From Liolophura sinensis (lineage: Eukaryota; Mollusca; Polyplacophora; Chitonida; Chitonidae), in assembly GCF_032854445.1 (NCBI RefSeq), contig NC_088295.1, forward strand, positions 85,234,644-85,298,643: a stretch of DNA of 64,000 bases. Reading direction: 5' to 3'. The notes under the pieces are model-generated. The model ran no database searches. It had not been told where the DNA came from and worked only from the letters and a program-made list of their open reading frames with translations. Positions 3,078 to 27,740 of the stretch are shown one piece after another; the stretch's first letter is position 1; the number at the start of each line of letters is the position of its first letter. Made by a program: the position numbers and the translations under genes.

Positions 3078-3184
3078 AATTGTAAAAAGGAAGTTACCAG
3101 TTGTTTGTCTGAAGATGAGGTGGAAAGCACAGTTAGCTGTCCTGGGCATGATGGCTGTGATGTTTGGCCTGATACCTTCCTCTG
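3078..3184 (+). CDS. HYOU1: HYOU1 coding exon 1 (signal peptide)
   Basis: The acceptor TTTTCAG ends at 3077 and the ATG is at 3115. The exon codes for [20 protein letters not shown] and four more residues, a charged n-region and a hydrophobic core. It ends in phase 1 at TCTG|GTAATT. Signal cleavage is likely just before LAVMS, two residues into the next exon, as in vertebrate HYOU1. Confidence 0.9.
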
Positions 3185-6100: not shown

Positions 6101-9100
6101 GGACATATCTTCCACTAATGTGGTATACATGTCTGTTCATCATCAGTAACTTTCCAGTTCCAAACGTCAATTGGAAAATTCTTCAGCCTGGTGTCAGACA
6201 ACAATAAATAAATAAGTAAATAGATGTAAACTGCATTTGCTACTTGACATGATGAAGGAGTAAATTCACTCAAAGTTTTTGAACAAGTAATGATGCTGTA
6301 TGAAGTGTGGTTTGTCACTAGTTAGTGAAGCTGCACCTTGTCGTGCCTTCATTTGAAAGCAGTCTCATGAATATTCCCAGAATACAAAGAATATGTTATT
6401 AAACATTGGAAATCAGGGGAGGTAACGTAGCTTCTGTGCAAGGCATCTGTGCCAGAGTTAATAGTTTTTACAAGCTTAACTGTACACTAATTCTGGACTT
6501 TATCAGAATGTTATATGTACACATGGTTTCAAACACTCAATGTACATGTATTTATGTTTTTCAGCCTGGGGTACCTATGGAGATTGTACTGAACAGGTAA
6601 GTCCCACCTTTTTAACCTAAGCTCACAAAACTTTTTTAATTAGTTATTATCTTGTAGATAAGGCCATGCATAAAAAGTTCTTTGTTGGGGGTAACCTAAC
6701 TCTATTAAAAAAAATAGGGTCGGTTAGTAGGGATAATCTTTTTTATTCTGGCAAATGAAAAAGATAGGGATTTTGCAGAAATTAACAGTGAGAGATAATT
6801 AAAGGCGAAATTCCATCAACAGCCAAATAAAAACTTCAGAGCTTATTCTGTAATATTAGTGAGTACATGCAGTGTTGGTGTTACATTATCTTATTGTTTT
6901 GACAGTAACATTGTCACAAAGATTTTTACAGTCGGACAGTACTCCACAAGTCATTTACCAGCTGTAGTTTTAGATTTTCCTGGATTACTGTTGTCTTGTT
7001 CTCATTACCAGAGAATCCCAGAGGAAAAGCCCTGTGGTTGTGTCCATGAGGGACGGAGAGCGCATGTTCTCTGATGCCGCTTTGCAGACAGTAAGTATCT
7101 CATTCATGGTTATCTCCCTTTACTCTTGTCTTGATGCACATTCACCTAGAACATTATTATTGCTAAAAATGGTTATAATATGATTTGTCAGTGGTAGCTT
7201 GTGAGTGAATCCAGCTCTCATTATGATATTTGAAAGGGATACAGAATTGATGTTGATTTGCTGATTGTGGATTTAGGGTTTCACCCTACACGTCACGCTT
7301 GAATAAATCTGCCATACCTAAAATTCAGCTCAAACTAGACATATCTTGGACTTGCTTATCTCACGTCAACCAATCAAAAACAATTTTGTCTCCCTTTAAT
7401 TCAAGATCTGAAGATCACAGGTGTAGACTGGGCACTCCAGTTTTCTCCACAGTTTTTAAGATATGTCACAGTACCTGGCAAAGGTGTAGCATACCTGTAC
7501 AATCATTGTATTATGTGAAAATTTATGAAATTCCTAACTGCATTATTCAACTGTTCTTTTTACAAACCATTCTATTATTTTTTTTTTTTTTTGTCAACTT
7601 CAACAGGCTATAAATCATCCTCGCAAAGCGTTCTGGTACTTGACTCATTTAGTGGGGAAAAAATTTGAAGACCCAGAAGTTGAGTTATTCAGGCAGAGAT
7701 TCCCTTATTATAACCTGGTGAAAGATGAAAAAACTGGAACTGTCAGGTTCAGAATTGACGAGTGAGTTGCTGTCTTCCCAGTATGCTTGTGATCAAAATT
7801 TGCATGGCTTAGTAGAAATTGTCAGCAATATTTGGTAATGTTATCTACACAGTCATTGAAAGTAACATATACTACAAAAGTGCACATTAATTCATAATTA
7901 TATTTTGTGTATAATCATTATGTGCATCATTTTTGTAACTTAATGGACTTTTGATGATTTCATAAATTTGATTCAGTTGAAGAAGCTTTTCAGATTTTAC
8001 CCCTACAACAGTACCATACATTTATACATAGATATTGTAATCAGATATTTAGTTAGCTTTTTCCTAATAAAAGGAAACATTTTTAAAGCTCTTAAGGCTT
8101 GCAAGGATCTGTTCAGAATGTCTGGAGTAAGATAATATTTTATCATTGTATGTTTTTACTTGTCCAGAGAGACTGAGTACAGCCCAGAAGAGTTGCTGGG
8201 CATGATCCTGGAGAGAGCTAAGGAGGATGCCGAAACTTTTGCAGAACAGCCAATTAAAGATATTGTTATCACTGTGCCAGCATTTTATAACCAGGCAGAA
8301 CGACGTGCCATCATTCGTGCAGCACGGATGGTTGATCTGAACGTGTTACAGCTGATGAGCGACAATGCTGCGGTGGCACTCAACTACGGTATATTCAGAC
8401 GGAAGGAGTTTAACTCGTCCATGCAGTATTACATATTCTATGACATGGGAGCTACAAGTACCACAGCCACTGTTGTAGGTAAGCAAAGCTTTATATGTCT
8501 TTAATACTGCATTCGTCACTTTTTAACTGCAAAGTTAAATATTGGTAATGAAAGGCCCTACCAAATTACCTCCATTATGGTCACTCTCTCTTTTATATGG
8601 CGCCTTGTTAAGAGCAAGCTGTGCTTAAATGGGACATCTGAAGATGGCTTTTGGGTGAATTTTGAAGTTACAGTGGCATATTAAAGCTGGTTGAAGACAT
8701 GGTTGAAGACAGATTTTAATTTTGTAATCTAACTTGAAATCCCAGGATTGGTGACATGGTATACTTTTTAAGCTATTTGGATGAACTTTTAATGTCCAAA
8801 AATGAAATATAAGTTTTTTGTACATTCTGTTCCATAGGAAATAGATTTCATTGACATTCTAAAACCTACGTCGTGAATACTTGAGCAGGCAAGTTCCCAC
8901 CTCTGATAGTGTCACGCCTCAACACCTAATCCAGGGTTATGTCATAGCTGGCTGTGGTATGACAAGGGAGGCAATTCAGTGGAAGCCTGTTGAAGTATTC
9001 ACTTGGTTCATCGTTGTTCTGAGAACATTCCTGTTGATCAAAAAAGGCTCTTTTCAGCACTATGCAGATCATAGTAAGGTAATAGCTGCAAGAAAAGGTA

Positions 9101-12100
9101 TTATGAACTTCCATTTAGACATCTAATGTTCCTGTTATAGTAAACTTGAATAAAATCCTAAAGATATTGGTCTTTATTCTACTTTTTATTGTACTTGTTT
9201 CTGTTGTTGTTGCACAGGTTATCAAGTGGTGAAAACAAAAGAAGGAACCATAGTGGAGACTAACCCACAGGTGGTTGTTAAAGGTGTAGGGTAAGTTACA
9301 GGAATTTAGGTGTGCTTGTAGACTCCAGAAGTTCAGTATGGCTCCCCTCAAAGAGCCTGATTTTAATAAGATTTTGTGCCCATGTTCATTTTGTGGCTAC
9401 TCAGAAGAAAATTTCAAGAATCATCTCTTGCATAAGTTTGCAGTATTTGGCGTGGTATTCAAATTTTAGAATTTTCTTTAGTGTATATTTTGTCATTTTT
9501 ACTTATGCTTTTTTGTATTATGACAATTTTTCAGCTTAACTTTACAAGGAATATCTAATTGCATTCTGACACTCTTATATGGAGGAATTCTAACCATGAT
9601 AAGCAAACAGCTGACAAACACTTCTGTAATTTTTTCCATTGCAGTTTTGATAAGACTCTAGGTGGATTGGAAATCACACTTCGTTTAAGAAAGCACCTGG
9701 CTCAGCTTTTTAATGATCAGAAGAAAACAAAAACAGACGTATTCACAAATGAGAGGTCAATGGGGAAACTGTTCAAAGAAGCTTCCCGTGTGAAGAAAGT
9801 TCTGAGTGCTAATAACGACCATTTCGCTCAGGTGAGTTCGGGGAAATCTTGAGGGAAATGCATGACAGGTGTGAAGAATTTTCTTTTTAAATGTAAGGCA
9901 TTATGCAGTTAATTTAGTGAAATCCATCTTGCAGCCTGCAGCTGTATTCTTGTAGTTATGTTCAATTGGTACATTGGGAAATACATACATGTAGCTGACA
10001 CGGTAAGTAAAAGAAAAGTGTACAATTTTTGTTTTGAAAATTTCATGGTATGATCACATTTTTAAATAAACAGTAGTGGTTTTTGTTTTTTAGTGATTGC
10101 AAGGAATTAGAACGTTCAATATACACACGTGCATGTATTTATTTAGGTTGAAGGCCTACTGGAAGAGAAAGATTTCCGAGCCAAAGTGACACGAGCAGAC
10201 CTGGAAACTCTTTGTGCTGATCTGTTTGATCGTGTGACCAAGCCCATTGAAGATGCGCTGAAGGCTTCAGAAATTACACTGGTAGGGTTTTCCATAGTTT
10301 GAACTCTTGTCATCCAGCTTAACATTTGTGCGAAGGGGTATGTACTCATTTTGTTAATCAAATGCTCTGTGTGTTACATGTACATGGATCTGATTTTCTC
10401 TTCGACACTTCTGTTAAAATAGATAAACTTTTAATTAGCGTTTTGTTTATACAGGTAATTTTCCATCTGACAAAAAAATAACTGTGGATCATGTGAAACA
10501 GTTTATGTATTAAAGTGTACAACCTGTAGCATGTTGAATGTTAAAATCACATTTATTAGGAGGAAAGTACCTCTTACCTGGAAACATGAATGTATTTTGG
10601 CCTCTTGTCTTTTCAGGGTGAAATCAATGAAGTGATCTTGATGGGAGGCAGCTCAAGAGTACCTAAAGTACAGGAAAAACTGAAGGAATTCCTTGGCGGG
10701 TTAGTTTTTAATACTATTGTTTTGGCATTTCTTGTGCCTTCATTGCACTGTAGGTAAGAGCAATGTGACTATCTCTGTTCAGGTTTACACTAGTGTCAAA
10801 AAAAAACCCTTTCCTCCTGTATAAACATTTTTTTCAGGAAGAGTATTTGCAGAACCCCTTAGTGTACAGGTGGATGTAGAAATAGACTGCTTTAAATTTT
10901 TATCACTTCTTTATTAGCTCGCTTGTAAGAAGTAAGGAGAGGCATTATGAGACTGGGATCATATTTTGTCGCTAGTGGTGTCCAGCTGTGTTAAATTTTT
11001 TGGCCAATCATAGAGTTGCAGTGGCCACCCATAATACACAGGCAGCCAGTAGTCGGTGGTGTTTTGCATATCAAAGACCAACAAAGTTTTTGACCTCATA
11101 GCTCAATATTTCATCAGCCATTCACAGAGTGACATTTGCCACCCATAGTACACTAAATGACGTAAAGCTTCACACATGAGTTACTGTCGTTTACTTTTGT
11201 GCGATCGGAGCTGGCGGCAGGATGACAGAGGAGTGCGATTAGCCCCCCGCCTGCTTCATTACCCTGCATGGCACTTAGTAGCTCTGGTTGCTAATCCTCA
11301 CCACATGGGGTCAAGTCACTGACAGTGAGGTGTACATCTTTAAATATACCCATGAATGAAATTGAAGAAAGTATTCAGACAGGCGATATCTATTACAAAC
11401 CTTTAAATTCCAAACACTGTCTGAAAGCATGACAACGCCAAACAAGGAATGTACGCTGCAGAGGAACGGATTATTCGGGCTAGGCCTATGTGGAAGTCAC
11501 CTCACACCGTTATCTGGTGAACAGTTGTCTGCTGAGAGCCCTCATGATGCAATGAATATGTGTGCAAATGTATTTCAGCTTAAAATGAATTTCACTGAGA
11601 AATATCTATCGGCTCCCTGTGTCTATGTAATTCCAACTTAGTATGTCAGTCAACACGTTCAGTTTGTTTCTTTATGGTCGGAACTGTCCTCCTATTGCAG
11701 AACAGTTCCCTTTCCCACGTTTTTAAATAGGGAACCTCTCATTAAACAAAAAAACATACTCCATGCGAGGTCTGCGAAAACTACGATGATATGCTTTTAC
11801 CTCTTTTTGGAAGCACTTTGTGTGAGTTTGGCATATCGAGAGACAGGATTTGTTAGAGTTGTTATTATATTAATAGTTTGCACAAAACCATCACTGGCTT
11901 TATACGGGAGCAACAAAATGTTTTATGATTTCCTGTATGCAGTTTTGCCCAGACGTGATTTACATATCACCAGCAATTGATAAGATCATTGTTTTACCAT
12001 TCACCAGCAAAAATCATGAGATCAGTAGGTAGACACGTTTACATTGCGAGTCTGGTGATTGCAAGTCCTTTGTATCTAAGTGTAGATAAAACCAATCTTT

Positions 12101-15100
12101 ACAACTAAAATTTCATTTGAGGGGACTGAATTAAGTATTAAGTAAATTAAGTATTCATGGTTATGGGTGGAAGTTGACAGTCTTTCAAATTATGCCAGAA
12201 TGAACAAGAAATGTTTAGCTGCAGAGTTGCAAACGCACATGTGCAGGTGTGGGTTTGGTTGCAATTTGACATTGTCATCTTGTCTGCTGGTAGGCCTGGT
12301 TTGCAAATGTTGATTTACAGTGTGCGAAATTCAGCTACAGCTTTGTACGTGGAGGTGCCCTGCAGTTAAATACGGACATTTGACATAACTCCACATGCGT
12401 AAAGGTACTAAGTTGTCATGTTAAGTCTTCACAGAGTTTTCTTTCAAATTTTCATTTATCACAAAATAGCAATTATAAAACAGTCAACCCGTTGTGAAGT
12501 GCATGTACTAAAATCATTGTGATTTTTAACTGAGGAAATCATGAACTGTTGTTGGTAGGAGCATATAGACAGACTGCTTAGTGAAGCATGAGCTTGTTTA
12601 TTACGTTCTTGAAATGTCGATATAATCCGCTAACCACCCCTGATACTCTCCCACGGTGCCCAGAATCCCTGGTCAAAACTTCAGGTCATTTACCACAGAT
12701 TGATTTCCAAATACAGTCCGTGATTTGAATATCAAAGACCTCTGCGTTAAATTTTTGCCGAAACTCCCCACAGAGTCTTTTACCACCGCGATGATTTACA
12801 ACTCCATAGCATACAAAGTCACTGATCTGCAATCCTTACAATAAACATACAATACACATACAATAAACATGTCAAAGATGTAGTTATGACAGTATAATTT
12901 TGGCGTTCTGGTGGATTTAATGGCAAGACCTTAGCTCTGTCTAACTGGAGAATAATATTTGTGTATGACAGTGTCAATCATTCTACTTCATTTTGGTTTA
13001 GTGGTCAATGTTTGGAAATATCACATGACTGTTTTATGAAATGCTCAGTCAGGCAAGCTTCAGGTATTCAATTGCAGTTTGTTTATGGTGTTTTTGTTTT
13101 GTTTTTTTTTGTCTCAGGAGAGAATTAGGGAAGAGTATTAACACTGATGAAGCTGCAGCTCTAGGTGAGTTATTGTTTATACTCATTTACATGTTATGAT
13201 TCAAGTAAGAAGCGTTGACGTCATTCGAATGAATGATGATGGCTGAATGGCAATATTGTTGCCATATCAAGGCAGTGCAGACTTTGAGGGGATATAAAGT
13301 TTGATGACTTTTAGGATGTAGCTATTATTTGTGGAGGGAGGTTCCTTTGTTGTTTGTATCAAATATTAGGATGTATCCATTCATTTGCCTGTTAGCCAGT
13401 AAGTACTAACAACTAAATGACACTGTCCATCTGAGCATTCCAAGGTTTTTGTTTAAAATTAGAGAAAGTGGTCAGAGCTCAAAAGTGGGCACTTTTTTTG
13501 AAAGCAATTATGTCACATTTACTGTTGGTTTAAATAGACAGAACATCTGAAGTAGGCAGGTGCAAGGACAGCTTTCTGCAGCCTGACCCTTGAACTTTTT
13601 TGAATGCCGTGGCATTTATGTGTAAACAAACACCATTCACTATGAAATGTTCCAGACTGTGTCTGCTTACAGGGGCTGTGTACCAGGCTGCTCATCTGAG
13701 CAAAGGCTTTAGGGTGAAGAAATTCATTGTGAAGGAAGGCAATATCTATCCAATAGTTGTAAGTAAAACAGCTTATGAAACAAAGGATATTATATAGAGC
13801 ATAGAATAGTCGTTGTGTTCATATGTAAACTATTTGCGTGTGTGTTTCATTTTCTTTTTCTTTTTTTGTGTTCTGACTTCTTAAGCTGGTGTTTTGTATA
13901 TTCTTGTGTAGGGACAAAACTGTGGAAAAGTGGAATAGTGACTCATTTGTTCTGTTTTTCTTTACATTTTTTAAAATCTTGTTGCCATTTTCCCAATACT
14001 TTGCAAATTTATTCTCTCACAACTTCAGAAATGACTAGCAATTGATTATAATGTCATAAGGCCACGTAATTCGGAGGAAACTTTTTTTTTTATAATTGAT
14101 TTATTAATATTTGGCGAATGCCTTGTGTTTTAGGTTCAGTTTGAGAGACAAACCACTGCAGAGTCAGGGGAGACAACCACCAAACTAGTTAACAGGACAT
14201 TGTTTGGCTACATGAATCCTTACCCACAGAAGAAGGTCATGACATTCAACAAACATTTCAAAGACTTCCATTTTTGGGTCCGCTATGGAAATACTAATAT
14301 GCTAAGTGAAGAACAGCAAAGGTAGATGATCCACTACTTTGTCACTATTTACTTCTAAATTGTCATATCTCACTGTCTCGGCTGTGACATTAAGGCATTA
14401 ATAGCTGCTGGGTTACCACAAGCACTTGTGTCTCTCCCGTATAAACATAAGCAAATAAATAAATCACAGACCTTCCCTTGTATGGCTGGAGAGGAACCCT
14501 TAATTAATGAGGTCATAAGGTTAAGTTCAACTTCTGGTGGTGAAGTTGCAGCACTAAGTAAGAAGGTGTATCAGGCACCTGACAATAGGTTGTGGTTTTC
14601 TGCTCTGTGCCCTTTATCTTCATTCCAGAAACTTGATCTTTGTGAGGTAACAGAAGAAATTTTGAGTGCAGTGGTAAAAACAGTAAAAGACGTAAAATTA
14701 CACCTGTGACAGCATTGCATATTTCTCCTGATTCAGAGAGTTCTGTTGGTCTTTAATAAAAAGGTATTTTTAGGTTTGTTTTGAAGGAAGGTTTGAAAAA
14801 GGTATCATTCACCACCAAAAGTAGCATTTTTGTGGAGGCATTTATTTGGCTTGAAAAGTACACTTGTTAGGTCGTTTACCTTAAATAAATATTAACCATG
14901 TCCTGTTCTTTTTCTTTCTGTTGTGTAGGTCTTTGGGCTCTGGTGAGATACACAAAGTCAAGCTATCTGGTGTGGAAGAGAGTTTTGACAAACACAGCAA
15001 AGAGGCAGAAAGTAAAGGAGTGAAGGCACATTTTCGACTGGATGAAAGTGGTCTAATTGTCCTGGAGAGTGTAAGATAGCTTAAATATATGTATAAGATT

Positions 15101-18100
15101 GTATCTCAGTACACAGATTGTTTGGGGCAGTGTAGGATAACTTTGTGTCGGGATGCATCAAGATTGGTTCTCAACACACAGATTGTATGGGGTGATCTGA
15201 GATAACTTAATGTCAAGATGCATGAAGATTGTATCTCAGTACACAGATTGTTTGGGGCAGTGTAGGATAACTTAATGTCAAGATGCATAAAGATTGGTTC
15301 TCAACACACAGATTGTATGGGGTGGTGTGAGATAACTATGTCAAGATGCATAAAGATTGTATCTCAGTACCCAGACTGTTTGGGACAGTGTAGGATAACT
15401 TAATGTCAGGATGCATAAAGATTGGTTCTCAATACATAGATTGTATGGGGTGATGTGAGATAACTATGTCAAGATGCATAAAGATTGTATCTCAGTACAC
15501 AGTTTGTTTGGGGCAGTGTAGGATAACTTAATGTCAAGATGCATAAAGATTGTATCTCAACACACAGACTGTTTGGGGCAGTGTAGGATAACTTAATGTC
15601 AGGATGCATAAAGATTGTATCTCGGTACACAGACTGTTTGGGGCAGTGTAGGATAACCTAATGTCAGGATGCATAAAGATTGGTTCTCAACACACAGATT
15701 GTTTGGGGTGATGTGAGATAACTTAATGTCAGGATGCATAAAGATTGGTTCTCAGTACACATATTGTTTGGGGTGCTGTGGGATAACTTTATGTCAAGAT
15801 GCATAAAGATTGGCTTGTTGTCTGTATGATAAGATCAGAAAATAGTCGCAGTGTGGTTAAAAAAAAATAAACTGTTTGTTTTTGGCAGAGTAAAATCAGT
15901 GCAAATTTGTGTTACTGTGCTAAGGACTGTCAGATTCCCATGAACAGTATATGTTCAGCACATAATGTTTTTTTAACTGATGTATGTGTGCAGCTATTGA
16001 CAAACAGTGAAGAGAGTGGACTTTCATTTCAGTGTCTCTGCGTTTACAGTTTCACTCACTTTAAGATATGAAAGGGTAGGGGATTTTATTGAAAGAAATT
16101 TCTATAATGAAAGAGTACAGATGAATATCTGCACAAGCTAGTTGTGTTTCTGCTCACCAGGTGGAGTCTGTGTTTGAGAAACAGCCTGACCCTGAGGAGG
16201 AGAAGAAAGATGAATCTGCATGGTCCAGTAAGTTATGGCTTCACTCCTTTACCACTCTTGTCTTACCTGCTCATTAAAGTTGAATCCAACTTCCATATTT
16301 TTAGCTTCTGTTTAAAAACAAATCCTGTGATTGAGGCATTATTAACATATACCTGGGCCAATTCCATAAAGTCATTTCTGACTTAACTCAAAATGTAAAA
16401 CCTTGCCACAATGCTCAGTTTTGTTACTCAAAGTTGCAAGTGTACCACTTTTGTTTTAAGATTTATTAGCCCGTCAGAAAATTTAATTTTTAAGGCTCCC
16501 AAAATAGTTCAAATTTTGATATTTTTAAGTCAGATATGAAGTAAGCCACAGATGTTAAATGCATTTACATGCATAGACCTAATGCCATGCACTGAAATCA
16601 GCAAATAATTCCAGGTAAATAATGTTTATTTACTAATGCTATTATTCCTGTACTTATCAACAGTCTTTAGCTCACTTTAACAGCAGTTATGGCTCCTGCT
16701 GTAGGGAAATACAGATTTTTTTTAGACTGAAATACAGATTTTTTTTGAGTAAGGTCTTTTCCATCTCATGTTTGTTTTAGAATTAGGCAGTGCGATTGGA
16801 GGACTATTTGGCGGTGCAGAGGGTGAAGGTAAAGGTCAGCCTAAGGAGGTCAGTAGGCACAACTGTGTGTACCTGTCAATGCTGTTTACAGAGGTCAAAG
16901 ATCATTGCCTGCATTTATCAATCTTCCGATACATCTGCCACCTATATCTGCTGAGCTTCAAATTCTATGTTTTGTTTGATTTCTAGTATGCACAATTTGG
17001 TGGTGTTTTTGTTTTAAATTGTAGACTTTTAGGTGTTGGGGCTATTATATTATTTTGCATTTTATACCATAGTTTTGATATACATCTTTAAGAACAAAAC
17101 CCATAATTAAAGCATGAAGATGGATTTATGCATTTACTATCGCCTATTCAAAATGTCTAATGCTCTTTGTAAAAGTTCTTGTTGTCTAGAATGTATTTGG
17201 GCCTGTTGTGCTTTGTTAATGTTTTTTAGCCACTGGGTTTCACTGCTTGTAGTACACATAGCAGGTTTGTTGGCGAATGTTGTGTTATTTTCCCCTCACT
17301 TTGCTGTGTTTGCCCTGCCTCTGCAATAGGCCAGACCTCCAGGCACAAAAGCAGAAGCTGGAGAAGCTGCCAACGCCACCAAAACAAAGGGAGATAAGCC
17401 AACAGACAAAGGCAAAAAAAAGGAGGAAAGCCAGAAAAAGGTGTTTTACAGAAGCCTATTTTTTGTGCTCTTGACTCATTCCATTTTGGAAGTAGTTACT
17501 AACTTAGATATTTTATTTTGTTGGGCTGTTATTATTTGTTGCCTAGATCTTTCTGCTGAAAGCTTGTGTAGTTCATTTTGTAAGTTACACGTCACCTGCC
17601 TGTGTGTTTATACATTAAGCTGTACAAAAAATGTTTGATTTTTGTTCTTCTTCCAGAATAATTTTCAGTCTTCAGACATACATGTGGAACGTTATTATGA
17701 GGTATTTGGTTAAATGGAATGCCTAGGAAAAGATGTTTCCTTAAATCTTTATCTGGTTCCAAATTAGAGAAGTAAAGTGTGGCCCATACCTCTCCTGGTT
17801 GTCTTCGGACACTAGGTCGAATGTTGTGGCTTCAGGTCCGGAAGTGGAACTCTCCTGGTTCTGCCCAGTGCTTTAAATAAAATACAAATATTGTGGAGCA
17901 CAACATTAAACTCCAAGTCAAGATACACAATTTTCATGCCTACACTTAGATTTACAATCATAACTTGCAGACAGCAAATGTTAAGAATGTTTTTTTGGTT
18001 GATTCTTGTAATTTAGGAGAACACCAAAGAGGAAGAGCCCAAACCTTCAGAAGGGGAAAAAACTGAGGAAAAACCAACTGAGAGTGCAAAACAGGAAGAG

Positions 18101-21100
18101 GATGGTAAAAAGGCAAAGGAGGGCAAGACGGAGGAACAAAAGACAGAGGAACAAAAAACAGAGGATAGCAAAGACAAGAAAACAGAAGAAGGCAAGGATA
18201 CAGACACGTCATCTAAAATGGGAGACAAGAAAAAAGATGGGGAAGATAATGGCAAGGATAAAAAGGTTTGTTTGATCTTAAACTTGCGCTGTGAAGCTAG
18301 GGAGATGTTGTGCAGCCCTTTTATATCGAATCGACTCTTACTTTTCACTTCAGTTTTTACTTCAGTTTTTTTCCCCATTCATGGGAAGTCACTCTATAAT
18401 GGAAATGCTTCCAGTGTGGTGTGAAAGATCAATCTAACACATAAGTATATGAAGATGTACGGATGTGTATGTTGATGTGTTATACATATGTACAACACCA
18501 TTGAGCTCATACACACAAGTGGTAACCGTAGTACCCCAAAGTCAGAATGAATGGATGTGTTTGTGGAGATAGTTGTTTGAAAAATTTCCTAAAACATATT
18601 TAACATGTGCACTTTTTGATTTTAGGATGAAAAGGAAGAAGAAAAACCAAAGAAACCTAAGGTTGTCGTGATCAAAGATGAATTGAAGGCCAAAACTAAG
18701 ATTCTAGATTTGCCTGAGCCATCTGAAGACAGTGTAAAGGAGTCCAAGTCAAGGTACACTATCCATACCCATTGACTAACTCAGGTGAACGTGTTGTTAC
18801 CTCATGTACACTATCCATACCCATTGAATAACTCAGGTGAACGTGTTGTTACCTCATGTACACTATCCATACCCATTGAATAACTCAGGTGAACGTGTTG
18901 TTACCTCATGTACACTATCCATACCCATTGAATAACTCAGGTGAACGTGTTGTTACCTCATGTACACTATCCATACTTGTTGAACAACTCAGGTGAACGT
19001 GTTGTTACCTGATGTACACTGTCCATACCCGATGAATAACTCAGGTGAACGTGTTGTTGCCTCATGTACACTATCCATACTCGTTAAATCACTCAGGTGA
19101 ATGTGTTGTTACCTCATGTACACTATCCATACCTGCTGAATAACTCAGGTGAATGTGTTGTTACCTGATGTACACTGTCCATACCCGATGAATAACTCAG
19201 GTGAACGTGTTGTTGCCTCATGTACACTATCCATACCCGTTGAACAATTCAAGTGAACGTGTTGTTACCTGATGTAGACTATCCATACCCGTTGAATAAC
19301 TCAGGTGAATGTGTTGTTACCTCATGTACACTATCCATACCTGCTGAATAACTCAGGTGAACGTGTTGTTACCTCATGTACACTATTCATACCCGTTGAC
19401 TGACTCAGGTGAACGTGTTGTTAACTCATGTACACTATCCATACTTGTTGAACAACTCAAGTGAATATGTTGTTACCTCATGTACACTATCCATACCCGT
19501 TGAACAACTCAGGTGAATGTGTTGTTACCTCATGTACACTATCCATGCTCGTTAAATAACTCAGGTGAATGTGTTGTTACCTCATGTACACTATCCATAC
19601 CCGTTGACTAACTCAGGTGAATGTGTTGTTACCTCATGTACACTATCCATACCCATTGACTAACTCAGGTGAACGTGTTGTTACCTCATGTACACTATTC
19701 ATACCCGTTGACTGACTCAGGTGAACGTGTTGTTAACTCATGTACACTGTCCATACTTGTTGAACAACTCAAGTGAATATGTTGTTACCTCATGTACACT
19801 ATCCATACCCGTTGTCCATACTTGTTGAACAACTCAAGTGAATATGTTGTTACCTCATGTACACTATCCATACCCGTTGAACAACTCAGGTGAACGTGTT
19901 GTTACCTCATGTACACTATCCATGCTCGTTAAATAACTCAGGTGAATGTGTTGTTACCTCATGTACACTATCCATACCCGTTGACTAACTCAGGTGAATG
20001 TGTTGTTACCTCATGTACACTATCCATACCCGTTGAACAACTCAGGTGAACGTGTTGTTACCTCATGTACACTATCCATGCTCGTTAAATAACTCAGGTG
20101 AATGTGTTGTTACCTCATGTACACTATCCATACCCGTTGACTAACTCAGGTGAATGTGTTGTTACCTCATGTACACTATCCATACCTGCTGAAGAACTCA
20201 GGTGAACGTGTTGTTACCTGATGTACACTGTCCATACCCGTTGAATAACTCAGGTGAACGTGTTGTTACCTCATGTACACTATCCATACCTGCTGAATAA
20301 CTCAGGTGAACGTGTTGTTACCTCATGTACACTATTCATACCCGTTGACTGACTCAGGTGAACGTGTTGTTAACTCATGTACACTGTCCATACTTGTTGA
20401 ACAACTCAAGTGAATATGTTGTTACCTCATGTACACTATCCATACCCGTTGAACAACTCAGGTGAACGTGTTGTTACCTCATGTACACTATCCATGCTCG
20501 TTAAATAACTCAGGTGAATGTGTTGTTACCTCATGTACACTATCCACACCCGTTGACTAACTCAGGTGAATATGTTGTTACCTCATGTACACTATCCATA
20601 CCCATTGACTAACTCAGGTGAACATGTTGTTACCTCATTTACACTATCCATACTCGTTAAATAGCTCAGGTGAATGTGTTGTTACCTCATGTGTTTAAAC
20701 AAATGTTGAAATTGTAGCATCTTTTCGTTCCTTTAATGGGCACATTTTGTACATGCATGCCATGGTCATCAAAAGGTATTAAATCAAAAGCTGAGAGTAT
20801 AAATTAAACTTGATTAAATAGGAAAGCTCTGTGATTTAGGTACTAAGTTTTCATGAAATGAGTCCCCAGTCTCTAAAATCTATTATGGTAGGACTATGTG
20901 ACATTGGAAAGTGTCTGGATAGGTTTGTGTGCGTGATGGATTTGAAGGCTTGTTTTGTTTTATACCATAAAAAGTAAAAGTTTTGGTTCAAGTACCGAAA
21001 AATCAAATCAGGTGAAAGAGAGTGAAAACTCATTTGCAAATATGGTCTTTTATATAATTTTTTTTAGACTTTTTTTTTCATTTGAAAATATTTTTTTTGT

Positions 21101-24100
21101 TATGGTGGGTATTTGGGGCCCTCTTTTGTGTATATCGTCTTTGCATAATAATATTCTTAATAAGGATGTGATGCATGTCTAATGTAAATTTATTGTTTAT
21201 ATCTAAATATATGCATTTAATCTGAATTCTTATATATATGGATCAAGGAGTGGTACCAAATATCCGCCATACAAACATTTTCAAGTGTTCTTTTCTCATT
21301 AAAGAAAAATCGAAAAAAAATACTGAAGACCATATTTACAACTAACTTTTTGAACTCTTTCATCTGAACTTTGTTTTCTCCACCTTTAACCAAAAAATAT
21401 TCTTTCACTGTTTTGATCACATGTTGTTTATTGGTCTCCTTGTGTTACTCAGGGGCAAGAAGGAGGGTAAAAATGTTTGCACCCCATCTGTCGGTCTGTC
21501 AGACTTCTTTTTTGAAAATGGTTCGCTGTATTGAATTGAAACTTGGTAGATGGCTTCACCATAACAAGTTACAGATTAAGTTCAAGTTTCAGGTCCCTGC
21601 ATTCAGTTTGGCCAAAATTATACATTCTTGTTTGCAATTTTATGGATTTAACTTACACGGAAATGTTTCTGCTTTTGTGTGTACTTAACAGGCTGGCTGA
21701 ACTAAGGAAAAATGACCAGGAAAAATTACTACTTCAAAAGGCAAAGAATGAACTGGAGTCATTCATATTTGAAACTCGTGACAAGCTGTACACAGATGAG
21801 TATGAGAAGTGTTCTGTAGAAGAGGAGAGGGAGAGTCTGAGGTCTCAGCTAATAGAAGCCGAGGACTGGCAGTATGAACAGGAAGATTCTGCAGGAAAAG
21901 ATGTAAGGCTGCTGGTAGAAGGGTGGAACTTACAGTGTAGCTGTGGTCAAGAAATGATAACATGATGTACAGGATATATGTAGGATGAAAATATACAGGA
22001 TGTATTCCATCTGTTTCCTACCAGAGATTGATGGAGTCAAGTGACGTATATAGTTCCAGTCACATGCAGCAGTTTCTTTAGTCGTTATCCTGGGCAAAAA
22101 TTCATATTCTAACCCATAAAACTTTTGGATGTCTGGAAGATGTATGTTTTGAAACTAAAAGTAATATTTGATGACATTTATTTGCCTGTAAAAATGCACT
22201 TTTTCTGGATGAAATGTGGGCTCAGTTTCAGTACCTAGCTTACCAATGATGGGTGATTAGGCTGCAGTTATACGGCAGAAGGTTTGGATCCCCACCCTCA
22301 GTGTACGGCCATGTTCCTTGTCTTTGCTCAGTTTCCTCCACCCATAAACCTGTTTGATGTCATATTTGAAAAGTTCTTGAATGTGTCATTCAACATGAAT
22401 TAAATAGATTAAGGAATAACACCTGTGGATGTATTTAGTGAAGGGCAAAGAAAAGAGAATTGTCAAAGTTATCTTCAGATATCATAGTCAAGATTTTTAT
22501 TGAATTTATCACTCTGCAATTGCCCATCACCAATGAAAGCTTCTACACATGAAGCTGCTTTCTTATACTTACATTCATTGCCTAGGCTTTCCAAAAGCTG
22601 TTTTCGTAACTGCAAGGCCTTCCAGTTCTATGCCAAGTGAGCATGAGCAAGCAGTTTTAAAGAAGCCAATTTTCAGAACTTTTTTTAGCGTAATCACATC
22701 TTCTGGCTACTCCTGACTATTTTAGTGGTCTTCATTTGAAATACATATATACACATATATGTGGTTATCCAATGCCGGCTTCTTTGTCATTTAGGTAAAA
22801 GTATGGCGTAACACTCCAATGAAATGAATAAAGAAAGAAACAGCGTGGAGTATTTATTACAGTGGAACTTAATAAGGGGAGCTAACAGGCAGTGCAGGAG
22901 TAGTCTCCCCTCACCTGCATGTATTCAACTACATTGTATGACTACAAAATACACATGTAAACAGATCTCTGTGTTCTCTGTTAATAGGTGTTCATAGATA
23001 AGTTAAAGGAATTGAAGGCAGCGGCTAAGGATTTGTTCACCCGAGTGAAAGAACTACAGCTTCGTCCTAAGGCGGTTGAGGAGCTGCGGGCTACCATCAA
23101 GCAAGGATGGAATTTCTCAGAGAGCATCCTTAACCTCTCAAAGAGCGATCCTGACATCTTTACACAAGTGGAAATGGATACTTTGATCAAAGTGCTAAAT
23201 GAAACAGAGGTAATATAGGCTGTGATATGAAGTATTTATAAGCTCTCAGACATGTGAGGAACAGTTTGTTATCTTGCTTTAATACTTGATAAGTATGCTT
23301 TCACTTGAAAGAGCAACATGATTTAAACTAGATGGATAAGTTTCAGGTGACATGTTTTATGACATACACCTTCTTGTGAAGTATGCTCTTCAGTCCAGAG
23401 TTCTGCTGTATATATCTAGGAGGTTTTGATGAGAATTCTCACCAAGACATGGCTGAAACACTGCCAGTGTGACCATGATATTCCATTCTAATTCACATCA
23501 GTTAGTCAGTACCCTCTCATCTTGCTTAAATATATACATCTGAATTGTGTTTTTGTGTTTCGTTTTAGATATGGTTGAATGAAACTGTGAAGCTTCAAGA
23601 CAGTACACCTTTATATGAAGCAGCTGTTTTAACTAAGGCAGCCATCATGGAGAAGGGTGTGGCTGTTGCCAGGGAGATGCAGTATCTCATCACCAAAATG
23701 GTGTCCTACAAACAGAAGCCTCCCAAATCAAAAACAAAGGAGGATAAAAACACTACAGATAGTGCAAAAGGAAACACTACAACTGATACAGAAGGTCCAG
23801 CATTAGGTAAGCTTTTTATCTATATCAAATATAGCATGTCCTTGTCCAGTTTTTTTTAGTCCAGTATAGTTTTACTATACCTCCTATTTTATGCTGAGTA
23901 TATCTTGAAAGCCTTCTTGTGAGATACGTATCTTCTCAAAAACCCAGAATTAGCATGGTGTGTGTTTTACTATTTTTGTAGCTACTTTTTTCTTTTAAGT
24001 GCTGCTGTAATTTTTTGTCCTGTCAAATTGGTTTCTCCAGACAAACAGGGTAATGATACATCTGCGCCAGAGCCCCCTGGTGGGGATTCATCACCTCCTA

Positions 24101-27100
24101 GTGAAGACAGTACAAAGGGAGATGACTCTGCCTCACCCGATATGACTTCAAGTGAAGAAACTCCTCAGTTAGGTCTGATTACAAGCATAAAATTACACAC
24201 CCCTGCATGGCAGCTTCCAGCAAATGCTTGCTAACTCATAAGGACTTAAACATATGTATCTGTTTGGCATGATGATAACATGGGGTGTTTGGTACTAGCT
24301 CCCGCTCTTCCATTGGGAAAGGCTTCGCTTATGGTAAATTATCTGGTGAAGGGTTTCATCTATTTCTGAGTGAGCACCATTCAACAGGTCCATAAGGAAA
24401 GGGATTTAATGTTTTACCAGAAGCATGTAATTTGCTTGTGCTTGCATCCTTAGCAGACCCAGTCCTACCAAACCAAACACACATCTCCCCAACGGAACAA
24501 GCATCTTCCAAACCAAACACACATCTCCCGGACGGAACAAGCATCTCTGAGACCAAACACACATCTCCCGAACGGATCAAGCATCTCCCAGACCAAACAC
24601 ACATCTCCCAAACAGGACAAGCATCTTCCAAACCAAACACACATCTCACCAATGGAACAAGCATCTCCCAAACCAAACACACATCTTCCAAACGGAACAA
24701 GCATCTCCCAAACCAAACACACATCTCCCCAACAGAACAAGCATCTTTCAAACCAAACACACATCTCACCAATGGAACAAGCATCTCCCAAACCAAACAC
24801 ACATCTTCCGAATGGAACAAGCATCTCCCAAACCAAACACACATCTTCCGAACGGAACAAGCATCTCCCAAACCAAACACACATCTCACCAACGGAACAG
24901 GCATCTCCCAAACCAAACACACATCTCCCAAACAGAACAAGCATCTTCCAAACCAAACACACATCTCCCCAACGGAACAATCGTCTACCAAACCAAACAC
25001 ACATCTCCCCAACGGAACAAGCATTTTCCAAACCAAACACACATCTCCCCAACGGAACAACCATCTTCCAAACCAAACACACATCTCCCCAATGGAACAA
25101 ACATCTTCCCAACCAACACACATCTTCCGAACGGAACAAGCATTTTCCAAACCAAATGAGCATCTCGCAAGCCGATTAAGCATCGAATAAGTACCTCACA
25201 AACTGATTTAACATCTCCGAAACCAAATAAGCATCTCCGGAACGGAACAAGCATCTTCCAAACCAACCAAGCATCTCTCAAAGTAAGCATTTGTCAAATC
25301 AAAGAGGTCTGCAGATAAGCATCTCTCAAACCTCATATTCGCTGCATCAATATACTTATTGGATTGGATTGGATTGTTCACCACGATGCAGTGTTGTGTA
25401 GTCCTTGCCAGTTGTGGGCTAACCTATTTAGCAACAAAGTATCATACTGGTACTCAGCTTGCACTACAGAAAATCAAACTTTCAAAGAGCATGGCTACTA
25501 TAGGGAAATCCTGTTGATTGATTGGTTTAGTATGGCGATGGTAAAATTCCACACTACAGTTTGGATGCGTACCAAACATTTAACCTCCAACTTGTGAAAT
25601 TATATTAATTTAAATTCTACTGAAAAAATGTTAACCAAGCGGTCAGTATTCTCCCTCAAGCCGTCCGTGTGCTTGGTGGAGTTGTCGTCCATCATACAAA
25701 CAAGACGGAATACCGATCATTGCTGAGGAACGAGAGAGACCTCGGTGTTTTCAATGATGCTTGTTCTACGAAAGTTGCTTCCTCCACTTACCCTTATGCT
25801 TATTTGGTTTGTTAGATGCTTGTTTGCCAGACCTTACTTTGGTTTGAGAGGTGCTTACTGGGCGGACTTTTCTTTGGTTTGTTAGAGGCTTATTTGGTTT
25901 TGGAGATTTTTGTTTGATTTGAGAGATACTTGTTTGATTTGGGGAATGCATATTCGGTTGGGGAGATTTTGGGGGGAATGCATATTCTGTTTGGTATAGA
26001 CGTAGATGCTTATTTGGCTTTTGAGATGTTGTTTGGTTTTGGGGATGATTGTTTGGTTTGGAAGACACTTAACTGCTTTGGCGGTAGATGTTTATTTGGT
26101 GTTGGAGATGTTTATTTGATTTCGGAGATGATCAATTAATTTGGGAGATGTATTTTTGGTGGTGTTTGCCTTCCGTACAGTCCTCCTGGCTTACCCACAC
26201 TCATGGAACATAGGCAAACTGCTGCAAACAACTCTGGCATACATTGCCCATTGGGATGAAGTTTCAATTGCCTGTGCTAGCCTGATGTGGTGGGCATGAG
26301 TGTCTGTAAGGTGACACCATCTTTGTATGTGGTGTTTTGTTGTGAGCCAACACTAAAAAATCCAATAAATCAACTAAAATAAAATTGAAAACACATCTAC
26401 ATATATTTATTTTGTCCTGTTGTAATATGTTACATAATATTTCCTGTTTTTGAATCATATAAATATGTCTTTAAAAGGAACAATTGCTCATTCAGTCAAC
26501 ATTCCCCACAATAGATGATTTTTCAGTTACATTTTTTTTTTACACCCTTACAGATTCAATATGCCTGTGAAACAAAAGTTTTAATCGGTGTAGCCTTATG
26601 TTATATATGCACTCATGTTGTGTCTAGCATGTGGGCAAGGTCTGTTGAGATGTAGGGCTATTCACGATGATGCGTCTTACTTCACCATGCTCTTCTTGAT
26701 TTATGCGGGAATCTGTTGCATTAACAAACCATTGTCTTGTGATGAGAAGATTGGGCTGGCCTGGTTTGAATGCTGATATGTATTCATGCGTGTTATGCTT
26801 TAGGGAAGTAGGATATGATTGCATTGCATGTCAGATGTACATGTAATCACATGAATTAAGTGGAGTAAGGCTATAATTCCACTGAAAACCTTCAGCATCC
26901 TCATTTTAACAGTGGCCAATTTGAATGACGTCAAATACTAGATTGATCTGTACTGTGTATAAGTTAAACCACTGTCAGAGTACTACATGGAAGCAGTTGG
27001 TGACCAGCTTGGTGTAGGAGCACTTGGTATATGACAATTGTTGGACCCACAAGACCGTGAGAACCATAAATTCTAAATATGACAAATTTGAGAACCCACC

Positions 27101-27740
27101 TTTATATACAGTGTTAAATATAAAACAAATCAGAGATATTGTCATACTATTGCCATTATTCTTCCAAATTTGATGACCCCCAAATGTCATTGATAAATCC
27201 AAGAAAAGGTTTATATATCACTTTTGGATTATATCCTAAGGCAGAATCTCGAGAAGATCTTATGTTGTCATGGCAGTAAGTGTAACACATATTATTTGTG
27301 CTTAGTGAAGCTGGCTCCATGTCATACTTATTTTACAAGCTTTTGGTCATGTGGAGTTTGTCTACGTACCCTGTCTGTGGTCTTCCGTACACATGACCAT
27401 GGTTGGTGTGTATGTAAAATATTTTTGCACACTGCATACAGATATCAAGGAATTACATCTGTATGTAGTATGAATGCATGTACATGTATGTTTGTGTATC
27501 TGAGCAAATTTGCCAACTGTTACCGTAGGACTTAGGAAACATGCTTTTTTCCTTGCAGATGCCCCTGATACAGCTACCACAGGAGGGTCCACTGATCAGG
27601 AAGGTGCTCAAGTGACTGGGGACAATGGGGAGGCAAAACGGCCAAGCACGAATGAAGAGACCAATCCAAACACAGATAGCGCTAAAACTATAGAAGACTC
27701 GGATTCACCAGAAAAAAATCATGATGCAGGAGAGTTATAA
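3115..27740 (+). CDS. HYOU1: Hypoxia up-regulated protein 1 (GRP170/ORP150), ER Hsp110-type chaperone; 24 coding exons
   Basis: Joined exons: 3115-3184, 3791-3852, 6565-6596, 7012-7090, 7607-7761, 8168-8478, 9218-9290, 9645-9831, 10147-10281, 10617-10699, 13118-13164, 13673-13758, 14134-14321, 14929-15070, 16161-16227, 16781-16848, 17330-17440, 18017-18265, 18626-18753, 21692-21902, 22988-23209, 23569-23806, 24041-24172, 27559-27740. The sum is 3258 nt, 1085 residues plus TAA; every junction is GT..AG and keeps phase. The order is that of the GRP170 family: signal peptide (~1-26), Hsp70-like ATPase (LAVMSADLG near 27; [12 protein letters not shown] near 225; GFDKTLGG near 261), beta-sandwich region (~440-560), acidic Lys/Glu loop (~573-757), helical lid (~758-960), variable acidic tail. 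Human HYOU1 is about 999 residues, so length fits. Family knowledge: it is a nucleotide-exchange factor for BiP and a holdase in the ER lumen. The start is chosen because it opens a signal peptide, has purine at -3 (GAAGATGA), and an in-frame TAA (2422-2424) lies in the presumed upstream exon. The C-terminus AGEL is not a canonical KDEL-type signal. Confidence 0.96.
3791..3852 (+). CDS. HYOU1: HYOU1 coding exon 2 (ATPase start)
   Basis: Acceptor CCTTGCAG. Residues 24-44 include [14 protein letters not shown], the first strand pair and phosphate-1-like loop of the Hsp110/GRP170 ATPase. Ends in phase 0 at GTGAAG|GTAATT. Confidence 0.92.
4390..4405 (+). repeat. Poly(C) tract in HYOU1 intron 2
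   Basis: Sixteen consecutive C after a CCACCCCCA-rich lead. A G-rich transcript-antisense strand could form a quadruplex; otherwise it is simple sequence. Confidence 0.9.
5399..5458 (+). repeat. SINE family A, 3'-end fragment
   Basis: TATAAGTGAAATATTCTTGA, then GTACAGCATAAA and a GATAAATA end. Matches the 3' module of copies at 30120 and 57960. Confidence 0.65.
5643..6135 (+). repeat. 34-bp minisatellite, about 14.5 copies (HYOU1 intron 2)
   Basis: The unit contains TACATGTCTGGACATATC and TTCCACTAATGTGG. Copies are nearly identical; one near 5905 lacks four bases. Each unit holds TGTC-TG-GACA, a short inverted repeat. Confidence 0.95.
6565..6596 (+). CDS. HYOU1: HYOU1 coding exon 3 (32-nt micro-exon)
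   Basis: Acceptor TTTTTCAG, donor AACAG|GTAAGT. Codes [10 protein letters not shown] plus the first two bases of Arg55, the segment that follows the first ATPase strand in the family. Without it the frame breaks, so it must be constitutive. Confidence 0.9.
7012..7090 (+). CDS. HYOU1: HYOU1 coding exon 4
   Basis: Residues 55-81, including [20 protein letters not shown]. This matches the conserved R-K-(S/T)-P-V strand and (F/S)-G/S-D-A-A turn of Hsp70-superfamily ATPases. Donor CAGACA|GTAAGT, phase 0. Confidence 0.92.
7607..7761 (+). CDS. HYOU1: HYOU1 coding exon 5
   Basis: Follows a long polypyrimidine tract and CAACAG. Residues 82-132, including [20 protein letters not shown] and RFPYYNLV, the GRP170-type loop between ATPase subdomains. 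Ends phase 2 at GACGA|GTGAGT. Confidence 0.92.
8168..8478 (+). CDS. HYOU1: HYOU1 coding exon 6 (ATPase core)
   Basis: Longest exon, residues 133-236. Motifs in order: [60 protein letters not shown] and [13 protein letters not shown]. The last corresponds to the phosphate-2 motif of Hsp70, in the relaxed form typical of GRP170. Possible N-glycosylation site NSS. Confidence 0.96.
9218..9290 (+). CDS. HYOU1: HYOU1 coding exon 7
   Basis: Acceptor TGCACAG. Residues 237-260, [10 protein letters not shown] through VVKGVG, a beta-hairpin region preceding GFDKTLGG. Donor GTAGG|GTAAGT, phase 2. Confidence 0.92.
9645..9831 (+). CDS. HYOU1: HYOU1 coding exon 8
   Basis: Residues 261-323: [19 protein letters not shown], then [20 protein letters not shown], the adenosine-binding side of the Hsp70 fold (KxxLSAN). 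Donor CAG|GTGAGT, phase 0. Confidence 0.95.
10147..10281 (+). CDS. HYOU1: HYOU1 coding exon 9
   Basis: Residues 324-368: [33 protein letters not shown]. Exactly 45 codons, phase 0 at both ends. It encodes part of subdomain II of the ATPase. Confidence 0.94.
10617..10699 (+). CDS. HYOU1: HYOU1 coding exon 10
   Basis: Residues 369-395: [20 protein letters not shown], the connect-2/adenosine motif (V-(I/L)-(L/V)-(M/V)-GG-x-(S/T)-R-(V/I)-P) of the Hsp70 superfamily. The donor GGCGG|GTTAGT is non-optimal. Phase 2. Confidence 0.94.
10700..13117 (+). other. HYOU1 intron 10, largely featureless
   Basis: 2.4-kb intron. A ~38-bp segment with CCACCCATA(A/G)TACAC is repeated at 11001-11040 and 11115-11153. 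Otherwise no exon, RNA gene or transposon recognised. Confidence 0.6.
13118..13164 (+). CDS. HYOU1: HYOU1 coding exon 11 (47 nt)
   Basis: Acceptor GTCTCAG after a T-rich tract. Codes [17 protein letters not shown], the invariant N-x-DEAAA-G helix closing the ATPase. Phase 2 to phase 1. Confidence 0.93.
13673..13758 (+). CDS. HYOU1: HYOU1 coding exon 12
   Basis: Acceptor GCTTACAG. Codes [20 protein letters not shown], then EGNIYPIV, the end of the ATPase and linker into the substrate-binding beta region. Donor GTT|GTAAGT, phase 0. Confidence 0.93.
14134..14321 (+). CDS. HYOU1: HYOU1 coding exon 13 (beta-sandwich)
   Basis: Residues 441-502, from [12 protein letters not shown] through [20 protein letters not shown] to MLSEEQQ. 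Contains the NRT sequon (LVNRT). Donor CAAAG|GTAGAT, phase 2. Confidence 0.92.
14929..15070 (+). CDS. HYOU1: HYOU1 coding exon 14 (beta-sandwich)
   Basis: Residues 503-550: [39 protein letters not shown]. The V-K-A-x-F-x-L-D-x-S-G-(L/I) motif is conserved in Hsp110/GRP170. Donor GAGAGT|GTAAGA abuts the 65-bp minisatellite of intron 14. Confidence 0.93.
15078..15820 (+). repeat. 65-bp minisatellite, about 11 copies (HYOU1 intron 14)
   Basis: The GATGCAT start recurs every 65 bp. Two unit types alternate in the 5' half: type A with TGTATCTCAGTACACAGA and GGGGCAGTGTAGGATAA, type B with GGTTCTCAACACACAG and GGTGATGTGAGATAA. The higher-order period is therefore about 130 bp. It starts within ten bases of the exon 14 donor. 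Confidence 0.93.
16161..16227 (+). CDS. HYOU1: HYOU1 coding exon 15
   Basis: Acceptor CTCACCAG. Codes [20 protein letters not shown] plus WS, the end of the beta domain and start of the acidic stretch. Donor TCCA|GTAAGT, phase 1. Confidence 0.92.
16781..16848 (+). CDS. HYOU1: HYOU1 coding exon 16
   Basis: Acceptor GTTTTAG. Codes [20 protein letters not shown] plus PKE. The K-L-G-x-x-I-x-x-LFGG segment is a GRP170 hallmark at the border of the acidic loop. Donor AAGGAG|GTCAGT, phase 0. Confidence 0.92.
17330..17440 (+). CDS. HYOU1: HYOU1 coding exon 17 (acidic loop, skippable)
   Basis: 37 codons, phase 0 at both ends. Low-complexity Ala/Lys/Gly/Thr-rich sequence ([20 protein letters not shown] and on) with sequon NAT. 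Donor AAAAAG|GTGTTT is weak, so in-frame skipping is possible. Confidence 0.85.
18017..18265 (+). CDS. HYOU1: HYOU1 coding exon 18 (acidic loop, skippable)
   Basis: 83 codons, phase 0 at both ends, almost entirely Lys, Glu, Asp, Thr and Gly, with repeated [12 protein letters not shown]-like units. It accounts for much of the extra length relative to the human protein. Donor AAAAAG|GTTTGT is weak. The antisense frame is also open by composition and is not a gene. Confidence 0.88.
18626..18753 (+). CDS. HYOU1: HYOU1 coding exon 19 (end of acidic loop)
   Basis: Residues 716-757, [36 protein letters not shown]. The V-V-(I/L)-x-L-x-x-LDLP pattern resumes the conserved fold. The donor TCAAG|GTACAC is itself the first bases of the 52-bp minisatellite. 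Confidence 0.92.
18754..20690 (+). repeat. 52-bp minisatellite, about 37 copies (HYOU1 intron 19)
   Basis: Starts exactly at the first intron base. Each unit has GTACACTATCCATAC, ACTCAGGTGAACGTG and TTGTTACCTCAT. Variant units (CCCGTTGACTAA, GCTCGTTAAATAA, CTTGTTGAACAA) recur in the same order, showing higher-order blocks of several units. Confidence 0.97.
20940..21430. mobile_element. Degenerate foldback element in HYOU1 intron 19
   Basis: The left arm (~20975-21110) and right arm (~21235-21405) are diverged reverse complements. Shared blocks on the plus and complementary strands include AAATATGGTCTT, CATTTGAAAAT-like and GG(G/A)TATTTGG. Pieces of an open frame in both arms mirror each other and are not coding. 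Confidence 0.55.
21692..21902 (+). CDS. HYOU1: HYOU1 coding exon 20 (helical lid)
   Basis: Residues 758-828: [40 protein letters not shown]. The (N/S)-(x)-LE-(A/S)-FIFE-x-(R/Q)-DKLY motif is diagnostic of Hsp110/GRP170 lids. Donor AAAGAT|GTAAGG, phase 0. Confidence 0.95.
21903..22987 (+). other. HYOU1 intron 20 with a possible old SINE
   Basis: Around 22261-22420 there is a SINE-like CAGTTTCCTCCACCCATAAA followed by CCTGTTTGATGTC, resembling the body of the element at 52560-52737. The rest is unremarkable. Confidence 0.4.
22988..23209 (+). CDS. HYOU1: HYOU1 coding exon 21 (helical lid)
   Basis: 74 codons: [20 protein letters not shown] through [20 protein letters not shown]. The F-T-(Q/E)-VEM-x-TL-x-KV-(L/I)-NET block matches GRP170. 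Donor ACAGAG|GTAATA, phase 0. Confidence 0.95.
23569..23806 (+). CDS. HYOU1: HYOU1 coding exon 22 (lid end, tail start)
   Basis: Residues 903-981: [50 protein letters not shown], then Thr/Asp/Lys-rich tail. Donor TTAG|GTAAGC, phase 1. Confidence 0.93.
24041..24172 (+). CDS. HYOU1: HYOU1 coding exon 23 (acidic tail cassette)
   Basis: 132 nt, phase 1 at both ends, so it can be skipped in frame. Codes a Pro/Ser/Asp-rich tail ([20 protein letters not shown] and on). The donor TTAG|GTCTGA is poor; read-through would stop at the TAA ending 24234, giving a shorter isoform with a different C-terminus. Confidence 0.75.
24465..25345 (+). repeat. 40-bp minisatellite made of two diverged 20-bp halves (HYOU1 intron 23)
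   Basis: From 24481 a 40-bp unit recurs in strict register. It consists of AACCAAACACACATCTCCCC and AACGGAACAAGCATCTTCCA, which agree at about 14 of 20 positions. After about 25150 it decays into single 20-bp units such as AACCAAATAAGCATCTCCG. All three frames are open on both strands because the unit lacks stops; the long open frames are artefacts. Confidence 0.95.
25755..26160 (-). repeat. Inverted counterpart of the 20-bp array (HYOU1 intron 23)
   Basis: Repeats such as AGATGCTTATTTGGTTTGTTAG are the reverse complement of the AACCAAATAAGCATCT monomers at 25210-25345. The unit is about 20 bp and strongly diverged. With the forward array and a ~410-bp centre it forms a large inverted structure. 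Confidence 0.8.
27559..27740 (+). CDS. HYOU1: HYOU1 coding exon 24 (C-terminus)
   Basis: Acceptor TTTCCTTGCAG. Codes an acidic Thr/Asn/Ser-rich tail ending [11 protein letters not shown] and TAA. Vertebrate HYOU1 ends in NDEL. Here the last residues EL are kept but position -3 is Gly, so KDEL-receptor binding would be weak or absent unless another sequence serves. Confidence 0.9.

Follow-up and report, generated by a model that had tools for sequence, protein, structure and literature searches.

A 52-bp intronic minisatellite begins at a weak predicted 5′ splice site of a HYOU1-like gene in Liolophura sinensis and multiplies stronger donor-like sites

Introduction

In a gene of the chiton Liolophura sinensis, the base at which a predicted intron begins is also the first base of a long tandem repeat. 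Where does such an array come from, and what do the donor-like sequences it multiplies do to splicing? An earlier note on this DNA held that the array is a field of decoy 5′ splice sites, that it might have spread by duplicating the exon edge, and that it could tune splicing of an acidic-loop region. We report here a computational analysis of the locus, placed in the whole 64,000-nucleotide stretch of DNA that was analysed, called the window.

Results

A minisatellite in an intact HYOU1-like gene

The coding exons of the host gene, a member of the Hsp70 superfamily, were positioned by GT/AG borders and reading frame, every junction being a prediction. Spliced together, the 24 exons yield one intact open frame of 1085 amino acids, which rules out a pseudogene. 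An Hsp70 domain (PF00012, E 2.8e-86, residues 31-514) was found when the first 550 amino acids of the predicted protein were searched, and 2 of 6 single exon frames matched the same family; 70 amino acids of the tail had a weak match to Sse1 (E 0.005). Read by eye, the predicted protein has a hydrophobic start, a lysine/glutamate-rich loop and an HDAGEL end. From its sequence features we take the gene to be HYOU1, and call it HYOU1-like. The 70 amino acids of exon 20, the only exon searched in this way, gave a single match in the 609-Mb genome, at the host gene itself, meaning that no second copy of the gene was found genome-wide with this query.

Exon 19 joins exon 20 (21692) in frame through a predicted TCAAG/GTACAC donor at 18753/18754. 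As it is 128 nt long, skipping it would break the frame. Intron 19 measures 2938 bp, and about two thirds of it is occupied by the 52-bp minisatellite. Table 1 gives the coordinates of these features.

Table 1. Main features of the locus (positions in the window; a slash marks the exon/intron cut)
Feature	Position	Strand	Details
HYOU1-like host gene (Hsp70 superfamily)	3115..27740	+	24 predicted coding exons
Exon 19	18626..18753	+	128 nt, ends TCAAG; predicted from its in-frame junction with exon 20
Predicted true 5′ splice site, intronic half	18754..18759	+	GTACAC, bases 1-6 of repeat unit 1
Minisatellite	18754..20690	+	37 units (36 of 52 bp, one of 65 bp), trailing GT to 20692; Tandem Repeats Finder and unit splitting
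Units 1-4, most homogeneous run	18754..18961	+	units 2-4 identical, unit 1 one base off
TGA stop in frame with exon 19	18773..18775	+	inside unit 1, upstream of every decoy
First decoy donor, CAG/GTGAAC	18782..18790	+	cut after 18784; one per unit, intact in 32 of 37
Exon 20	21692..21902	+	acceptor ACTTAACAG/G; predicted junction

Tandem Repeats Finder placed the start of the array on the first base of intron 19, immediately after the last base of exon 19, and splitting into units gave 37 of them. Both results agree with the earlier note, which had the repeat beginning exactly at the exon-intron boundary and running for about 37 units. The units lie head to tail within the predicted intron, making this an intronic minisatellite; the single 65-bp unit is at 19794-19858, and the last full unit ends at 20690. 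A 22-base word matched 37 times in the array and not once in 100 shuffles: the array is far beyond chance. Unit starts read exactly GTACAC in 35 of the 37 cases, the exceptions being unit 11 (GTAGAC) and unit 37 (TTACAC). The full word GTACACTATCC is present at 27 places, and CAGGTGAA(C/T) is intact in 32 units, the other five carrying CAAGTGAA.

Unit 1 is identical to unit 18 (19638). Private changes are confined to 6 of the 36 units of 52 bp, one each in units 7, 10, 11, 28 and 35 and two in unit 37, and unit 1 has none. Exact blocks are found again 3, 8, 11 and 12.25 units away, and at other unit spacings too, a pattern that looks like ordinary unequal exchange. Inspection by eye of the decoy motif found column 31 disrupted in 5 of the 37 units. 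Most of the rest of the motif does not vary, as in other parts of the unit, and to the eye the decoys have been neither purged nor given special protection. The intronic half of the working donor turns over with the array.

Strength of the donor-like sites

Donor sites were scored with a standard human donor matrix and with a matrix made from the gene's other donors. The predicted true donor, AAG/GTACAC, scored 4.46 with the human matrix, which ranks it 21st of the 23 donors of the gene, and 0.91 with the gene's own matrix, the last of 23. In 32 of 37 units, the CAG/GTGAA(C/T) motif reached 7.6-8.6 (human matrix). Paired with the U1 of this genome, these 32 decoys give a predicted duplex of −8.4 kcal/mol, the true donor one of −5.6 and CAAGTGAAT one of −2.2. 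Among the five CAAGTGAA units, four have a score of 4.8, a little more than the true donor's, and the fifth has 3.9. It is therefore correct, for 32 units, that the decoy fits U1 better than the real site, and the description of the array as a field of donor-like sites is borne out by consensus score and U1 pairing alike.

The repeated GTACAC had also been presented as a multiplied donor. The word is indeed repeated, but its 35 copies in units 2-36 (GTACAC or GTAGAC) are poor donors because each is preceded by T (CAT or GAT): they score 0.3-1.3, versus 4.5 for the true donor, and GTACAC copies after T form a U1 duplex of only −0.7 kcal/mol. Scoring all units, as the note had proposed, sets 32 decoys above the true donor by consensus score and U1 pairing together and leaves the GTACAC copies weak.

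When the unit was shuffled 20,000 times, about 2% of the results contained a site as strong as the decoys; on the + strand of the 64-kb window such sites occur at 1.2 per kb outside the array. The decoys are one founding event that was copied, not 37 independent events. In the part of intron 19 outside the array, four GT sites equal or exceed the true donor, and one of these scores 7.8 (human matrix). With the gene's own matrix, the number of GT sites that reach the true donor's score is 76 within the array and 26 outside it; with so many outside, scores alone do not predict usage.

Masking of the decoys by hairpins was ruled out, six stretches of unit and flank folding no better than shuffles (z −0.53 to +1.52). 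No Rfam match at gathering score was found in the 64-kb window when structured RNAs were looked for. A search for U1 genes gave 41 genome matches, 40 of them over the Rfam cut-off, and the one copy that was read begins ATACTTACCTG. Many of the U1 genes sit about 2 kb apart, with equal scores, in a tandem cluster (L036 and G000:C10:30033968-30140539), and four more are on contig C627.

Consequence of decoy use

When all 37 CA(G/A)GTGAA sites of the array were joined in silico to exon 20, the same ending followed by a stop was obtained every time, because the TGA of unit 1 precedes the first decoy. Counted from exon lengths, about 327 of the 1085 residues would be lost. Several junctions follow this stop, so that decay is to be expected from the usual rule, and an mRNA spliced at a decoy would be unproductive and probably decayed. 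Decoys that all read into this TGA offer truncation or decay only, and the proposal that they tune splicing of the acidic loop was not upheld.

Acceptor sites were scored on the basis of 21 acceptors, with exons 2 and 23 left out. The acceptor of exon 20 scored 5.68, the best AG site of the array 6.77, and the best CTCAG/GT sites 5.55. For a reading of CTCAG/GT in terms of recursive splicing or poison exons, these acceptor scores are middling; poison exons of 52n nt are conceivable.

Expected frequency of such overlaps

Minisatellites (period 15-130, at least 150 bp, at least 4 copies) were counted in a 283.6-kb sample composed of the window, the flank on either side of it and 20 further stretches taken at intervals from five of the 632 contigs. 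There were 26 arrays, or about 92 per Mb. If the genome has in the order of 200,000 introns, the measured density predicts about 18 arrays, genome-wide, whose start falls by chance on an intron's first base. For intron 19 alone, an array of the same length placed at random would have a chance of about 1 in 1000 of starting exactly there, and at the density of the window (8 arrays in 64 kb) the chance that any array does so at one of the gene's 23 donors is about 0.3%. An edge on some donor is expected many times in the genome by chance, and rarely in one given gene. Since the overlap was selected for being striking, the genome-wide figure is the fairer one. Strong donor-like sites (cut 7.6) were present in 3 of the 52 strand-units of the 26 arrays, the intron-19 array included (7.647).

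Some other arrays were observed on this occasion. One background array (stretch L018, from 3754) has a donor-like edge scoring 7.7, with no evident coding exon beside it. In the window, a 65/130-bp minisatellite (15095-15813) starts 24 bases into the intron that follows the exon-14 donor (15070), and the three genome matches listed for it are all in place. Intron 23 harbours a 40-bp minisatellite (24468-25156) in which ORFs of 202-279 aa run in several frames of both strands, a pitfall for gene prediction. Finally, the unit of an irregular 46-bp array (62508-62816) holds a strong donor-like CAG/GTGTGC (8.8).

Origin and dispersal of the unit

The idea that the array spread by duplication of the exon edge was contradicted by alignment. 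The last 52 bases of exon 19 match the unit at 14 of 52 positions in register, random 52-mers averaging 13.5, and of 300 random 128-mers, none aligned to the array less well than exon 19. With no resemblance between exon 19 and the unit, and a T before GT in units 2-36, the unit does not contain an exon end as in the human CBS repeat (see Discussion); what it shares with that type is that the array adjoins a 5′ splice site and multiplies donor-like sites. To judge from these alignments, the duplicated segment lies within the intron, with only its left border coinciding with the exon end.

The genome was searched with units 1-4, very common words being skipped and counts being lower bounds. At least 12 matches were returned, and those listed are all inside the array. 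Among these matches there was no copy of the unit at any other place in the genome, which rules out a dispersed family, and five other GTACACTATCC clusters (stretches L029-L033) proved to be different repeats. Separate from the array, intron 19 contains an imperfect inverted repeat (20997-21378, 66-nt arms, 71%) with partial matches in stretches L004 and L019, possibly a miniature transposable element.

Discussion

We think it probable that this is an ordinary intronic minisatellite, found at one locus in a HYOU1-like gene, whose decoys are passengers. The array would have been built as a 52-bp segment lying wholly in the intron was duplicated in tandem again and again, the left border of the segment being on the intron's first base or no more than about one base away from it. 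This border would then be held in place by selection acting on both the exon and the GT, and with the border fixed at the start of the intron, the intronic half of the donor is part of the array. The CAG/GTGAA decoys would simply be carried along by duplication. The true donor would be used for enough mRNA to keep the chaperone working, and any use of a decoy would lead to one truncated frame, removed by nonsense-mediated decay. Four points count against this explanation. Taken for this one gene, so exact a coincidence is improbable. The units closest to the exon are the most homogeneous, which is odd if the edge is no more than a passive border. A much stronger rival lies 31 nt downstream of the weak true donor, so that silent decoys would need exonic help. 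Lastly, the donor was predicted from the reading frame, not from RNA.

Could the decoys be functional? They might compete for U1 and, through the stop in unit 1, send transcripts to decay, in which case array length would set HYOU1 output, possibly in a stress-shifted manner. The low rank of the true donor with either matrix, the stronger predicted U1 pairing of 32 of the 37 decoys, the single stop common to all of them, and AG scores in the array that come near that of the exon-20 acceptor all argue for such unproductive splicing. The scheme is coherent, but it is drawn from sequence, and site strength alone does not decide usage. Scores discriminate poorly in this gene: with the gene's matrix, 26 GT sites that are not in the array score at least as high as the true donor, and by consensus the non-array site at 7.8 outscores most decoys. 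The decoys, moreover, are copies of one event, and strong leakage would be costly, given an intact frame and no second copy of exon 20 found. We consider this explanation unlikely. More doubtful still is a splicing dimmer, in which each unit would add a stronger U1 decoy and allele length would set the fraction of HYOU1 mRNA that is decayed; with GTACAC at 35 of 37 unit starts, nearly every contraction or expansion that preserves the register would leave a working, self-renewing donor. U1 might also bind the array without splicing there, its pairing sites guarding a long intron from premature cleavage and polyadenylation (telescripting). The array does offer 32 seven-base U1 matches, one pair a wobble, in 1.9 kb. 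Intron 19, however, has no AATAAA, and its four ATTAAA are all downstream of the array, leaving little to protect against, and we find such a role very improbable.

Concerning the origin of the array, two alternatives to local duplication of an intronic segment were weighed. The array could have been brought in by a Helentron-like element of which it was the core repeat, after the pattern of the Pacific oyster, where Helentrons are described as dispersing satellite-like repeats (PMC7492417), and the inverted repeat of intron 19 does have relatives elsewhere. With the matches listed for units 1-4 all within the array, and the other GTACACTATCC clusters being different repeats, this reading is disfavoured, and has in our opinion only a slim chance of being right. 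Copying of the exon/intron junction itself along the array would account for the exact start at the junction, but it is hardly credible in view of an in-register match no better than random, of the T that precedes GT in units 2-36, and of a unit 37 that starts without GT.

The overlap of a minisatellite and a weak donor is real, and its origin most likely neutral. If decoy use is real, the locus would present the competing 5′ splice sites of a single gene in a natural series of copy numbers, and could test how U1 chooses among many donors and in what way gene output is set by hypermutable repeats. If the decoys are unused, it becomes a clean case of a spliceosome ignoring 32 better-scoring sites beside a weak donor.

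Among the matches listed in a literature search, with subscription journals mostly outside its range, there was no paper on a minisatellite at a splice site of HYOU1. Introns gained through tandem duplication have been described (PMC4974935), but this is not applicable here, since exon 19 is not copied. The closest precedent is the VNTR of human CBS, like the intron-19 array a minisatellite at a 5′ splice site that multiplies donor sequence. Its copies cause alternative splicing. It is also reportedly associated with reduced CBS activity and raised post-load homocysteine, going by the title of a 2001 article by Lievers. The CBS repeat is a 31-bp VNTR of 16-21 copies, c.1444_1467+7(16_21), at exon 13/intron 13 (PMC2630376, PMC1395315, as excerpted). 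By its name, the CBS unit consists of 24 exon and 7 intron bases, so that the true junction is repeated, whereas the intron-19 unit is intronic and has its strong decoy inside. A long intronic minisatellite is also found in human TERT, where alleles of VNTR6-1, a 38-bp repeat of intron 6, shift splicing to nonsense-mediated decay isoforms (PMC11830802). VNTR6-1, however, lies some 3.5 kb away from the exon it affects, a G-quadruplex mechanism is proposed for it, and the excerpted text of that paper describes no field of decoy donors (PMC11830802). As for the Helentron repeats of the Pacific oyster, they resemble the intron-19 array in forming short tandem arrays outside classical heterochromatin, but, according to the excerpted account, they are dispersed in many copies (PMC7492417), whereas the matches listed for the intron-19 unit are at one locus.
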